Shown here: one piece after another, positions 30,465-33,691 of the stretch
Position numbering within the stretch: position 1 is the stretch's first letter
How the letters are laid out: each line of letters starts with the position of its first letter
Source of the DNA: Lactiplantibacillus garii
GTDB taxonomy: Bacteria; Bacillota; Bacilli; Lactobacillales; Lactobacillaceae
DNA: 64,000 nt
Direction: 5' to 3'
Assembly (NCBI RefSeq): GCF_003885105.1
Contig: NZ_QWZQ01000013.1
Span: forward strand, 1-64,000
Position numbers and translations under genes: made by a program
Notes under the pieces: model-generated
Database searches by the model: none
What the model saw: only the letters and a program-made list of their open reading frames with translations
Told to the model about the DNA's origin: nothing

Positions 30465-30884
30465 CTATTTGGCTTTCAGCACTAGTGGCGAGGCGTTCGC
30501 CACGGTCAGTTGAGTTAACGGCAACTGCACGGCCCCGTGGGAATCCTGCCCCGCAAAGTTGGGAACCTTGGCTGCTAATTCGCCAGACAGCGACTTGACC
30601 CGGTAAAAAACGCCAATATGCTGGTTAAACTGCCACCGTTCAAATTGCCACGGGTAGCGAAAACTCGTCGCCCCCAGCTGAATCACCCGGACTGCCGTTA
30701 GTCCCGTTTCTTCACGAATTTCCCGTCTGATTGCGTGCTCAAGGGGTTCCCCGTCTTCTAAGCTGCCGCCGGGTAAGTCGTAACGGTTTGTGTAAGGACC
30801 CCCGAATTTCTTAGTAACGACCAAGCCGGGTTGTAAATCGCCAATAATACCATAAACCCCAAACGCACGGTGATAAGTTGTCAT
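30465..30884 (-). CDS. Nudix hydrolase
   Basis: A 139-residue protein with a complete Nudix box G-x5-E-x7-R-E-x-x-E-E-x-G near residues 40-62 (GGSLEDGEPLEHAIRREIRE then ETGL). These enzymes hydrolyse nucleoside diphosphates linked to another moiety; the substrate here is unknown. ATG 30884 follows GGAGG by eight bases; a start 15 bp upstream would sit on the ribosome site. The promoter should lie in the shared region with the DUF2087 operon. Confidence 0.9.
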   Translation of the reverse strand: MTTYHRAFGVYGIIGDLQPGLVVTKKFGGPYTNRYDLPGGSLEDGEPLEHAIRREIREETGLTAVRVIQLGATSFRYPWQFERWQFNQHIGVFYRVKSLSGELAAKVPNFAGQDSHGAVQLPLTQLTVANASPLVLKAK

Positions 30885-30979
30885 TGCTGCTTCCTCCATT
30901 AGTTATCGCTAGCTATTAATGTAAGCGTTTTATTAGTCGATTGCAACTTTCACGTGTTATTGATGACCCGCCAAAACAC

Positions 30980-31072
30980 TGTTTACCGTTTTGATAAACA
31001 ATTGATTCAACATAGTGTTTATCAAAATAATAAACTTTATTACTTTTTACATGTTTACAAATACTATAAACA
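30980..31072. promoter_or_regulatory. Three TGTTTA-N9-TAAAC(A/T) operators at 36-bp intervals
   Basis: Inverted repeats of identical 21-bp layout start at 30980, 31016 and 31052. Each has TGTTTA, nine variable bases, then TAAACA (TAAACT in the middle copy). Start-to-start distance is exactly 36 bp both times. The third copy overlaps the -35 element and spacer of the promoter at 31054-31082. Confidence 0.8.
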
Positions 31073-31082
31073 TCAGTATACT
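31054..31082 (+). promoter_or_regulatory. Promoter of the DUF2087 operon
   Basis: TTTACA (31054-31059), 17-bp spacer, TATACT (31077-31082), 24 bp before the start codon and overlapped by the third operator. Confidence 0.8.
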
Positions 31083-31106: not shown

Positions 31107-31835
31107 GTGCAACTTAATCATTTAACCCTAACCGACCTTAAACGGGGCTGGCACCCCGTTCCTACCGGCTGGCAGTGTAACTACTGTCAGGCCCACTGGT
31201 CAACCGCATCCCCCGAACAGGAGCGTAACGAACACCTAACGCTCGTTCACGGGGGTAACTTATCACAACTGATTCACCTAGATAGTCGTTATAATACGCT
31301 GACCAACAAACAGCAGGACCTGCTGACCGCGTTTGCGACCGGAATCAAGGATCAGGCGTTGGCCAACCAGTTACAAGTGGCCGCCGCGACAATTCGTCAT
31401 CAGAAATTTACTTTCCGGGAAAAGGCCAAACAGGCCCGGCTTTATCTCGCCATTTACGAAGCCGTTTTTGAACAAACCGCGGCTCAGGAAACACCACTAA
31501 TTGACGTTCCCGACCAACCGGGACCCGTTGACGACCGCTTTATCATTACCGAAGACGAAGCCGCCGCGACACTTCAGCACTACTTCGACTTTGACCAACA
31601 ACCGTTACGTTTAAAACGGTGGCCTAAAAAACAGAAAGTCATCTTAACGGTGCTGACCCGCATCATTGACGAAATTCCGGCCAATCACCATTTTTCCGAA
31701 ACTGAACTTAACCAACGACTCAAGCCCATTTACTTTGACTATCCCACCGTCCGGCGGTACCTCGTCGATTACGGGTTTCTTAACCGCACCACGGATGGCC
31801 GGGAATATTGGCGTAACACGAACGGAAAGGACTAA
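31107..31835 (+). CDS. DUF2087 transcriptional regulator with N-terminal zinc-binding motif
   Basis: A 242-residue protein in three parts. Residues about 15-48 have C-x2-C...H-x5-H (WQCNYCQAHW...NEHLTLVHGG), a likely zinc finger. Residues about 65-110 look like a LuxR-type helix-turn-helix (LTAFATGIKDQALANQLQVA). The C-terminal 70 residues are DUF2087 (LKRWPKKQKVILTVLTRII... YPTVRRYLVDYGFLNRTTDG). It starts at GTG 31107 after AGGAGG and heads a three-gene operon. The operator array just upstream points to autoregulation (inference). Confidence 0.8.
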   Translation: MQLNHLTLTDLKRGWHPVPTGWQCNYCQAHWSTASPEQERNEHLTLVHGGNLSQLIHLDSRYNTLTNKQQDLLTAFATGIKDQALANQLQVAAATIRHQKFTFREKAKQARLYLAIYEAVFEQTAAQETPLIDVPDQPGPVDDRFIITEDEAAATLQHYFDFDQQPLRLKRWPKKQKVILTVLTRIIDEIPANHHFSETELNQRLKPIYFDYPTVRRYLVDYGFLNRTTDGREYWRNTNGKD

Positions 31836-31837
31836 CT

Positions 31838-32218
31838 ATGGAAACAGAACGTAAGAAACAGCTTCAACGAGCTTTTAAAATGGCCCCGACCTATTACGGG
31901 GTCATTCAAATCGAGAACCAAACCAATCATAAAATTTTTATCGACGTGGTTCCCAATTTGCATAACCGTTGGCAATTTTACCAACTAAACCTGAACAAGG
32001 ACTTTTATCGCAACACCCCGCTACAAGCGGACTGGAATGAACAGGGGGCCGCTAACTTTACTTACAGCGTCCTGTTTAAAGAAGACACCGCTAACGTCCT
32101 GAACATGCGGGCAACGCTAAAAGCCTTAAAAAATAAGTGGCTGCACAAACTAACCCCCTTTGACGACCGCGGTTATAACCGGCGGCCCAGGGACTGGGAG
32201 CAAACTGAAAATGACTGA
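31838..32218 (+). CDS. GIY-YIG-like protein with degenerate catalytic motif
   Basis: A 126-residue protein. Residues about 18-75 align by eye with the GIY-YIG domain: YYGVIQIENQTNHKIFIDVV-type start, NLHNRW (conserved Arg kept), then LQADWNEQGAANFTYSVLF. The GIY Tyr is replaced (YGV) and the YIG Gly is replaced by Asp (IFID), so nuclease activity is doubtful. Genes of this type often sit next to DUF2087 regulators. It starts 2 bp after the regulator stop codon and overlaps the next gene by 8 bp. Confidence 0.65.
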   Translation: METERKKQLQRAFKMAPTYYGVIQIENQTNHKIFIDVVPNLHNRWQFYQLNLNKDFYRNTPLQADWNEQGAANFTYSVLFKEDTANVLNMRATLKALKNKWLHKLTPFDDRGYNRRPRDWEQTEND

Positions 32219-32876
32219 ACAACTTAATAACCACTACACGGTGATCGACCAACAAAACTGGCCGCGCCAACAGTACTTTTACTACTTTACTAAAATGAAC
32301 CCCACCGGCTTTTCGTTAACGGTCGACCTGGATATCACCGCCACTTTAACTTGGGCCCACACCCACCACGTGAAGTTCAACGCGGTGTACCTCTACCTCG
32401 TCAGCCAGTTATTGACCCGCCACCCGGAAATGCGGGTCGGCTACGTGAACGACCAATTGGTGACCTTTGACGTCTTGCACCCGTCGTACACGGTGATCCA
32501 CGCCGACCATTCGATTTCAAATTTATGGACCGCTTACGATGCCGACTTTAACGTCTTTTATCAGCGTTACTTAGCCGACTTACAACGGTACGGTGACCAA
32601 CCGGGACCGATGCCCAAAGCTCCACAATCCCCGAACTTAGTTAACGTGGGTAGTTTGCCATGGGTCAACTTCACTAGCTACACCCCCTTGCCGTTTAAAC
32701 CGCTCGACACGTTTTTCCCAATTTTCCAAGCCGGGCAGTTCAAGCAAACTGGAACACAAACTACGATGCCGTTAAGCCTCACGATCAACCACGCGACCGC
32801 CGACGGTTACCACGTTAGCTGCTTTTTTAACGAACTCCAAGCGCTGTTCACCGCGCCAACAACGAGCTTAGCTTAA
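32211..32876 (+). CDS. Chloramphenicol-acetyltransferase-like protein
   Basis: A 221-residue protein with the CAT fold. The N-terminus has WPRQQYFYYFTKMNPTGFSLTVDLD and the C-terminal part has INHATADGYHVSCFFNELQ, matching the H-H-A-x-x-D-G active-site motif with the catalytic His kept and the first His replaced by Asn. It may acetylate a substrate other than chloramphenicol. GGGAG lies 10 bases before ATG 32211. It is the last gene of the DUF2087 operon, overlapping its neighbour. Confidence 0.8.
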   Translation: MTEQLNNHYTVIDQQNWPRQQYFYYFTKMNPTGFSLTVDLDITATLTWAHTHHVKFNAVYLYLVSQLLTRHPEMRVGYVNDQLVTFDVLHPSYTVIHADHSISNLWTAYDADFNVFYQRYLADLQRYGDQPGPMPKAPQSPNLVNVGSLPWVNFTSYTPLPFKPLDTFFPIFQAGQFKQTGTQTTMPLSLTINHATADGYHVSCFFNELQALFTAPTTSLA

Positions 32877-33229: not shown

Positions 33230-33304
33230 CTTGCATCCGGATTTAACAATCTTTAAACTTAAAAAAACTTAACTAATCACTTACTAAAAGGAGTGCCGCT
33301 GCCC

Positions 33305-33691
33305 ATGTCATTAGCTTCCCGTCTAACCGTATTCGAACCCTACCTCGAAAAAATTACCGACCAGTCTCACCGGGCCAGCCTAATCACCGTTCTCAACTGG
33401 GTCGCCCAAACGTTCCCCGAGCTTGAACCGCGGCTGGCTTGGAACCAGCCGATGTTTACCGCCCACGGCACGTTCATCATCGGCTTTAGTCTGGCTAAGG
33501 CCCACTTCAATATCGCCCTTGAAAAAGTTACGCTGGACCGGTTTGCCGACCAAATTACCGCGGCGGGCGACCACGTCACCAAAATGCTGTGGCAGGTTAA
33601 CTTTGATCAGCCGGTAAATTATCCCTTACTTAACCAGGCCATCACGTACAACTTAACAACGAAGGCGGAGACCACGACCTTTTGGCGCTAA
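33305..33691 (+). CDS. DUF1801 / YdhG-like protein
   Basis: A 128-residue protein with SHRASLITVLNWVAQTFPELEPRLAWNQPMFTAHGTFIIGF and a later FNIALEK, matching the YdhG/DUF1801 fold (called intracellular iron chaperone-like, or frataxin-like, in Bacillus). Function in this organism is not known. ATG 33305 lies 11 bases after AAAAGGAG; GTG 33293 would sit on the ribosome site. Confidence 0.75.
   Translation: MSLASRLTVFEPYLEKITDQSHRASLITVLNWVAQTFPELEPRLAWNQPMFTAHGTFIIGFSLAKAHFNIALEKVTLDRFADQITAAGDHVTKMLWQVNFDQPVNYPLLNQAITYNLTTKAETTTFWR

Follow-up and report, generated by a model that had tools for sequence, protein, structure and literature searches.

What reads the three evenly spaced palindromes that precede the DUF2087 gene in the Lactiplantibacillus garii window (the whole stretch of DNA analysed here, 64,000 nucleotides, contig C44 of a 2.97-Mb assembly), and how would their occupation affect the genes behind them? 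The motif TGTTTA-N9-TAAAC(A/T) occurs here three times with start-to-start distances of 36 and 36 bp, as an earlier note on this DNA had described with exact coordinates (Table 1). We consider it likely that these three 21-bp palindromes are operators for the regulator encoded next to them, a dimer of which would bind through its helix-turn-helix (HTH) domain and repress the operon.

Apart from these three copies, the 64 kb contain no match to TGTTTAN9TAAACW without a mismatch, and the form ending in A is found at 2 places in the entire 2.97-Mb assembly, both at this promoter. Among 20,000 dinucleotide shuffles of the 207-bp intergenic region that holds the three perfect copies, one copy appeared in 16 and two or more in none. 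Loose matches elsewhere in the window carry little weight because, with up to two mismatches, there are 26 against 14.7 expected, a number that 2 of 100 shuffles also reach. For the comparisons below, the site was refined to TGTTKAY-N7-RTMAACA and scored out of 14 letters; O1 is the copy that has counterparts in other species.

Table 1 Features of the operator region and of the genes around it (window coordinates)
Feature	Position	Strand	Description
NUDIX gene, divergent	30465..30899	-	not needed for the operators
Operator O3, distal, predicted	30980..31000	.	TGTTTACCGTTTTGATAAACA; 14/14 to TGTTKAYN7RTMAACA; centre about -99 from the inferred transcription start
Operator O2, middle, predicted	31016..31036	.	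TGTTTATCAAAATAATAAACT; 13/14 to TGTTKAYN7RTMAACA; centre about -63
Operator O1, proximal, predicted	31052..31072	.	TGTTTACAAATACTATAAACA; 14/14 to TGTTKAYN7RTMAACA; centre about -27
-35 element TTTACA	31054..31059	+	inside O1
-10 element TATACT	31077..31082	+	17-bp spacer after the -35 element
Regulator, 242 aa, GTG start	31107..31835	+	zinc finger (C24, C27, H43, H48), LuxR/NarL-like HTH at about 61-128, DUF2087 at 168-236
GIY-YIG-like partner, 126 aa	31838..32218	+	without a Pfam match of its own; homologous to Bacilli proteins that match GIY-YIG
CatA-like O-acetyltransferase, 221 aa from the ATG at 32211	32211..32876	+	start overlaps the end of the GIY gene

The regulator, 80% identical to that of Lactiplantibacillus xiangfangensis, had been labelled a zinc-finger/HTH DUF2087 protein, and the zinc-finger and DUF2087 parts of the label are right: PF09860, which we take to be the same family as COG3860, is matched with 86.4 bits against a cut-off of 22.4, and the four zinc-finger residues are invariant in all 47 aligned relatives, the finger presumably binding a metal. 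The stretch T95-E105 is nearly as conserved, with ten of eleven residues invariant in 47 of 47. The GerE profile (PF00196) scores 13.6 bits, below its cut-off of 23.5, such that we do not count the regulator as a LuxR/NarL member; there is no Pfam match of the ArsR/HTH_5 type at E<=0.1, and a zinc finger is present instead. The AlphaFold model has a pLDDT of 92 overall and about 95 in the HTH, and its domain arrangement is uncertain because pTM is 0.62. In the structural comparison, residues 61-128 of the model match DNA-binding domains of the LuxR/NarL type, DesR best (Z 6.6, rmsd 2.0, 52 residues), where the VIA score should be read with the reservation that a Z below 8 can mean a common arrangement only; the best Foldseek E value is 0.019. 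The list of fold matches is filled by HTH proteins, the DUF2087 part contributing one winged-helix entry, MCM8, at residues 180-242 with Z 5.5.

Relatives were gathered by protein alone, yielding 66 loci and, with the window, 67 promoters. The loci span seven Lactobacillaceae genera, Enterococcus, Listeria, Paenibacillus and the actinobacterium Raoultibacter (one locus), along with three assemblies named Halanaerobiales, Clostridiales and Herbinix; the gene starts of five (L037, L047, L050, L083, L087), where the protein match begins late, were shifted by hand. All 66 relatives and the window have a site of at least 12/14 no more than 200 bp upstream of the start, and 66 of the 67 promoters have one of at least 13/14, the only 12/14 case being L079. 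When the remainder of these loci was divided into 2062 control bins of about 200 bp, 2 contained a site of at least 13/14; the bins are mostly coding and less AT-rich. The composition-matched test is a motif-blind dyad search with shuffled upstream regions as the null, from which 6 of the 67 regions were dropped as near-duplicates. In this search, GTT-N13-AAC occurs in 61 of 61 non-redundant upstream regions against 5.4 expected (z 22.8) and TGT-N15-ACA in 53 of 61; the eight highest-scoring dyads (z 21.7 to 30.1) all fall within this site, the null maximum being 5.8. This search is the independent line of evidence, given that the proximal and distal sites were picked by pattern and letter frequencies at the pattern positions are partly so by construction. 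Hence, the absence of the motif upstream of orthologues, which the earlier note had named as the observation that would count against its reading, did not occur. Because the same kind of site precedes the gene in such distant relatives, binding by its own product is very probable; judging from these sequences, this is very probably a site through which the protein holds down its own operon, with similar sites in lactobacilli, Listeria and an actinobacterium.

In the window, the third copy was said to cover the -35 element of a near-ideal promoter, and indeed O1 holds the -35 box together with part of the -35/-10 spacer of a promoter with 10 of 12 consensus letters, promoter-like sites as such being common (5 in the 3-kb scan against 3.0 in shuffles). 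Across the 61 non-redundant promoters, the site has a -35-like left half (at least 4/6) in 57 and a -10 of at least 4/6 behind it in 58, counts obtained with a script that favoured sites with a -10 behind them. The right half of the site lies in the spacer, a region free of sigma-A constraint. The start from which the O1 centre is reckoned follows from the -10 box, and a protein bound there would block polymerase, whereas activators with a LuxR/NarL-like HTH normally bind further upstream. A site on the core promoter combined with a promoter close to consensus points to autorepression.

The number of sites and their distances differ between lineages. At a threshold of at least 12/14, the 61 promoters have one site in 21 cases, two in 31 and three or four in 9, such that 40 of the 61 carry further upstream copies. 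Steps between sites peak at 35-36 bp (18, all in Lactiplantibacillus) and at 31-32 bp (12); outside this genus, promoters have a single site or steps that lie mostly at 24-34 bp, 31-32 being the most frequent, or at about 95-114. Of the 19 genus promoters, nine show three sites at steps of 36 and 36, to which G005 adds a further weak one; in the remaining ten, there are two to four sites and the steps range from 27 to 37 bp. The linkers between copies share 3-8 of 15 identities with those of the window while the step remains 35-36 bp, which argues for selection on spacing in the genus; the 36-bp step is a Lactiplantibacillus trait. The spacing may reflect cooperative binding, as the earlier note suggested, although steps elsewhere differ and 36 bp makes 3.4 turns of DNA. 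Recent tandem duplication was considered as its source and rejected, the linkers agreeing at 1 of 15 positions within the window promoter and at 2/14 to 8/14 within the other eight. A step of 36 bp corresponds to 3.43 turns at 10.5 bp and one of 31-32 bp to about 3 turns, from which we draw no inference; the facing half-sites in a 36-bp step are 21 bp, or 2 turns, apart.

The genes that would be governed by these sites, probably as one transcript, differ among loci. The GIY-YIG-like protein of the window has no Pfam family match at E<=0.1; in a phmmer comparison within an 8-sequence set, it matches proteins of L122 (E 1e-23) and L135 (E 8e-21), which themselves reach 32.2 and 35 bits for GIY-YIG (PF01541, cut-off 22.6). 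I-TevI provides the criterion of a catalytic Arg and Glu for GIY-YIG proteins. The Arg R44 is kept by 42 of 42 GIY-like proteins of clade L, most aligned Bacilli ones being without it, and no Glu is found among the columns kept in at least 85% of the alignment; the Lactobacillus form looks degenerate yet retains one Arg. The acetyltransferase passes the Pfam CAT cut-off (165.2 bits against 23.5) and falls below the equivalog cut-off of NCBIfam chloram_CatA (182.5 against 270). A CatA-like gene accompanies the regulator in 47 of the 66 loci; both partner genes are present in 42, one in 10 and neither next door in 14, one of which (L032) lies at a contig edge and another (L076) shows a short GIY-like frame at a distance of 3.5 kb. 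We found no account of a plantarum CAT/GIY-YIG operon in the open-licence literature. Because the site is present in all 66 loci, partners or not, it goes with the regulator and not with the cargo. The divergent NUDIX gene was rejected as the target of the distal sites, L059 (4 sites) and L070 (3 sites) being without a NUDIX match.

Several loci of this set have features of their own. L059 and L070 have no GIY or CAT match downstream of the regulator, yet keep four and three operators; the gene directly after the regulator is of the DUF1801 type (Pfam-confirmed in L059, similar by eye in L070), and a DUF1801-type gene also lies further downstream in the window, at 33293-33691. In six Levilactobacillus-type loci (L044, L049, L051-L054), the regulator and the GIY-like part form one frame of 359-364 residues, and a second good operator lies 95-102 bp upstream of the proximal one. 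In the Herbinix assembly (L081, 3849-4160), a second short DUF2087-like frame of 103 aa follows the regulator.

Whole genomes were compared as well, with the proviso that the genus and family genomes overlap with the 66 loci (for example, G011/L023, G328/L074 and G283/L087), so that the sets are not independent. The protein is matched in 19 of 21 Lactiplantibacillus genomes, and all 19 have at least two sites (at least 12/14) at the gene; the two genomes that lack it contain no perfect match and one, located within an open frame, respectively. In the sample of 81 family genomes, the protein is matched in 12 and the perfect motif in 42, so one motif copy alone is not diagnostic. A perfect site lies just upstream of the gene in G000, G014, G284, G320, G328 and G280 (at least 46% identity over most of the protein; the G280 frame holds one stop) as well as in G283 (residues 5-145 matched, 47%). 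Weaker or partial matches (G316, 37%; G325, 34%; G332, G298 and G274) have no perfect site at the gene, with related half-sites retained, by eye, in G316 and G325.

No wider regulon is seen in the genome of the window, because its 11 sites with at most one mismatch, three of them at this promoter, hardly exceed the 10 of the reversed control. A regulon elsewhere in the genus was likewise considered and rejected: 12 perfect matches are located elsewhere than at the gene in the 21 genomes, the reversed control giving 5, and of ten inspected, 8 lie inside the longest open frames, some near the frame start. The remaining two, in G000 and G020, are identical in sequence, TGTTGATTACAGATGTAAACA, which includes TACAGATGTA, similar to a CopY 'cop box'; the G000 copy (L179 position 1637; G000:C127:5636-5656) lies beside a gene for a protein that looks cupredoxin-like by eye, and for these two reasons we read TGTTGATTACAGATGTAAACA as the site of another regulator. 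In L080 (Secundilactobacillus kimchicus), genes that look similar to the cupredoxin-like one precede the DUF2087 gene. Another candidate, TGTTTACGCATTTCATAAACA, recurrent in family genomes among the places listed, lies inside an ABC ATPase-like frame (by eye) in both genomes checked.

DUF2087 is widespread: of 250 genomes sampled from the class, 110 have a match. Its other branches serve as controls, and 40 regions from the class survey were chosen by frame length. Among 70 Bacilli loci (L109-L178), 48 encode full-length proteins and 19 an ArsR type, L128, L143 and L163 being left out; the ArsR-like call relies on length and on a profile match that starts at about residue 75-87 (exception L157), not on a family scan. 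In the 48 full-length loci, a set unfiltered for redundancy (44 appear in the anchored view), the recognition helix reads RNHRF, RHHRF or similar compared with RHQKF in the window's group, most with a one-residue insertion before the helix. Here AAC-N12-TGT, the same half-site re-arranged, occurs in 45 of 48 (4.4 expected), whereas TGT-N15-ACA occurs in 11 of 48 (3.8 expected) and the exact Lactobacillus form is mostly missing. The best-kept arrangement is the outward-facing AAAC-N12-TGT, so that the pairing of half-sites per dimer is ambiguous; in many of these Bacilli, TGTYTA...AAACR follows, by eye, directly after the -10 box and, here too, sits on the core promoter. GIY-YIG is fused to the C-terminus of the regulator in 8 of the 48 (L129, L132, L136, L173-L177) and adjacent in 24, 32 in total; 16 lack a GIY match, 6 of them with less than 420 bp of DNA after the gene. 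Three of five such Bacilli GIY proteins scanned exceed the Pfam GIY-YIG cut-off.

Upstream of the ArsR-DUF2087 genes, some of these regions starting inside a coding frame, TGT-N15-ACA is found in 0 of 19 (0.5 expected) and GTT-N13-AAC in 2 of 19 (1.1 expected). These genes have a palindrome of their own, with ATT-N10-CTA in 17 of 19 and TAG-N8-CTA in 11 of 19, by eye (T)ATCTAATTAGAT. In the L139-L158 upstream regions (for example, L139, L154 and L153), it lies near the promoter, twice in some, as a second predicted operator; no report of TCTAATTAGA together with ArsR was found in the open-licence literature. Because the site differs with the helix and the ArsR-type genes carry another palindrome, the operator follows the HTH and not the DUF2087 domain. 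The earlier suggestion that the DUF2087 protein is the binder thus holds insofar as, in comparison, the motif has the distribution expected for an operator bound by the neighbouring regulator, whereas the part to which the site is tied is the N-terminal HTH.

These observations can be set against other readings of the locus. Conceivably, the motif is a mere promoter signature (TTGACA plus an AT-rich spacer) kept by common descent, its left half overlapping a -35-like box in 57 of 61 promoters; we give this next to no credence, given that the dyad ties the -35 half to an AAC in the spacer in 61 of 61 (5.4 expected), that further copies (at least 12/14) stand upstream in 40 of 61, and that the linkers have drifted to 3-8 of 15 identities while the step stays at 35-36. 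It is improbable, too, that the motif is recognised by a different cellular regulator, the DUF2087 protein being no more than one target among others. Such a reader might account for a perfect motif in 42 of 81 family genomes with a protein match in just 12, but the own genome has no excess over the control (11 against 10) and three of its 11 sites are here, and the site accompanies the gene amid differing neighbours and differs where the HTH differs.

The alternative that we take most seriously, although we still regard it as unlikely, is that the regulator binds these sites as an activator or in both capacities, O2 and O3 recruiting RNA polymerase and O1 limiting the level of expression as a homeostat. 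Most LuxR/NarL proteins are activators, activation being common for their type of HTH, and the distal sites, centred near -63 and -99 and held at 36 and 36 bp in nine genus promoters, could act upstream of polymerase; both points count against repression. Yet 21 of 61 promoters have a single site (at least 12/14), and 57 of 61 have one that overlaps both the -35 box and the spacer. The core promoters moreover seem strong by themselves, 58 of 61 having a -10 of at least 4/6.

We therefore return to repression by the regulator itself, for which the sequences suggest the following course. A dimer would bind TGTTKAY-N7-RTMAACA through the LuxR/NarL-like HTH, with a recognition helix around TIRHQKFTFRE; on the proximal site, it would cover the -35 box and the -35/-10 spacer and exclude RNA polymerase, so that its own gene and the GIY-YIG-like and CatA-like genes would be repressed. 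Apart from the two points given for activation, this reading has against it the GerE score below the cut-off and the modest Z, the ambiguous pairing of half-sites in other Bacilli, the five family matches that have no perfect site and the lower score of L079. The two distal copies, at 36 bp in many species of the genus, probably raise the occupancy or local concentration of the repressor, and release may come from a signal, perhaps one read by the zinc finger, the DUF2087 domain or the GIY-YIG partner. More speculatively, and with little probability in our estimate, the regulator and its GIY-YIG partner could form a split machine, a chromosomal counterpart of I-TevI, in which the regulator would bring the GIY-YIG domain to its own tandem operators and the operator or site-bearing foreign DNA would be nicked or sensed, such that occupancy would report invasion or damage and induce the operon.

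If repression is correct, one control point ties the regulator to the GIY-YIG partner and, in many lactic acid bacteria, to the CatA-like acetyltransferase. The analysis also predicts specific operators: one for the zinc-finger/LuxR-like branch, a modified form for the relatives in other Bacilli, and a distinct palindrome for the ArsR branch. The earlier note knew of no described DNA target for this family, which agrees with our searches: in the accessible portions of open-licence papers, we found none for DUF2087/COG3860 proteins, and a description may exist elsewhere. The protein would then be an autoregulated one-component regulator, and its predicted operator is the first that we know of for its branch.

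Among known systems, the LuxR/NarL regulators (DesR, NarL, LiaR) resemble the window regulator in the HTH-like fold modelled at 61-128 and in a dyad operator of about 20 bp, here a predicted one. The window regulator differs in falling below the GerE cut-off, in lacking a Pfam receiver or autoinducer domain, in placing the HTH between a zinc finger and DUF2087, and in its core-promoter site, which suggests repression. ArsR-type DUF2087 regulators, including BtmL of Streptomyces scabies, have the C-terminal DUF2087 domain in common with it, but their N-terminal part is ArsR-like, and the 19 Bacilli loci carry ATCTAATTAGAT instead. BtmL, the closest studied case, modulates btmD expression; the available part of that paper gives no DNA target, and the term 'EMSA' is absent from its main text (PMC7113386). 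In Symbiobacterium thermophilum, a LuxR-COG3860-GIY-YIG fusion, pointed out in 2006 in a paper that places it with relatives of homing endonucleases and whose available part describes no operator for it (PMC1564403), has the same domain combination, with the difference that the GIY-YIG part in the window is a separate gene. I-TevI of phage T4, according to the part of the account available, is a GIY-YIG protein that contains a zinc finger and acts as a repressor of its own synthesis via an operator over the promoter (PMC2988022). It is a homing endonuclease with another DNA-binding domain, whereas the GIY-like protein of the window looks degenerate, and the self-repression of I-TevI is a parallel, not evidence. 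Autorepression as such is ordinary; what is new relative to these systems is the family-wide operator.
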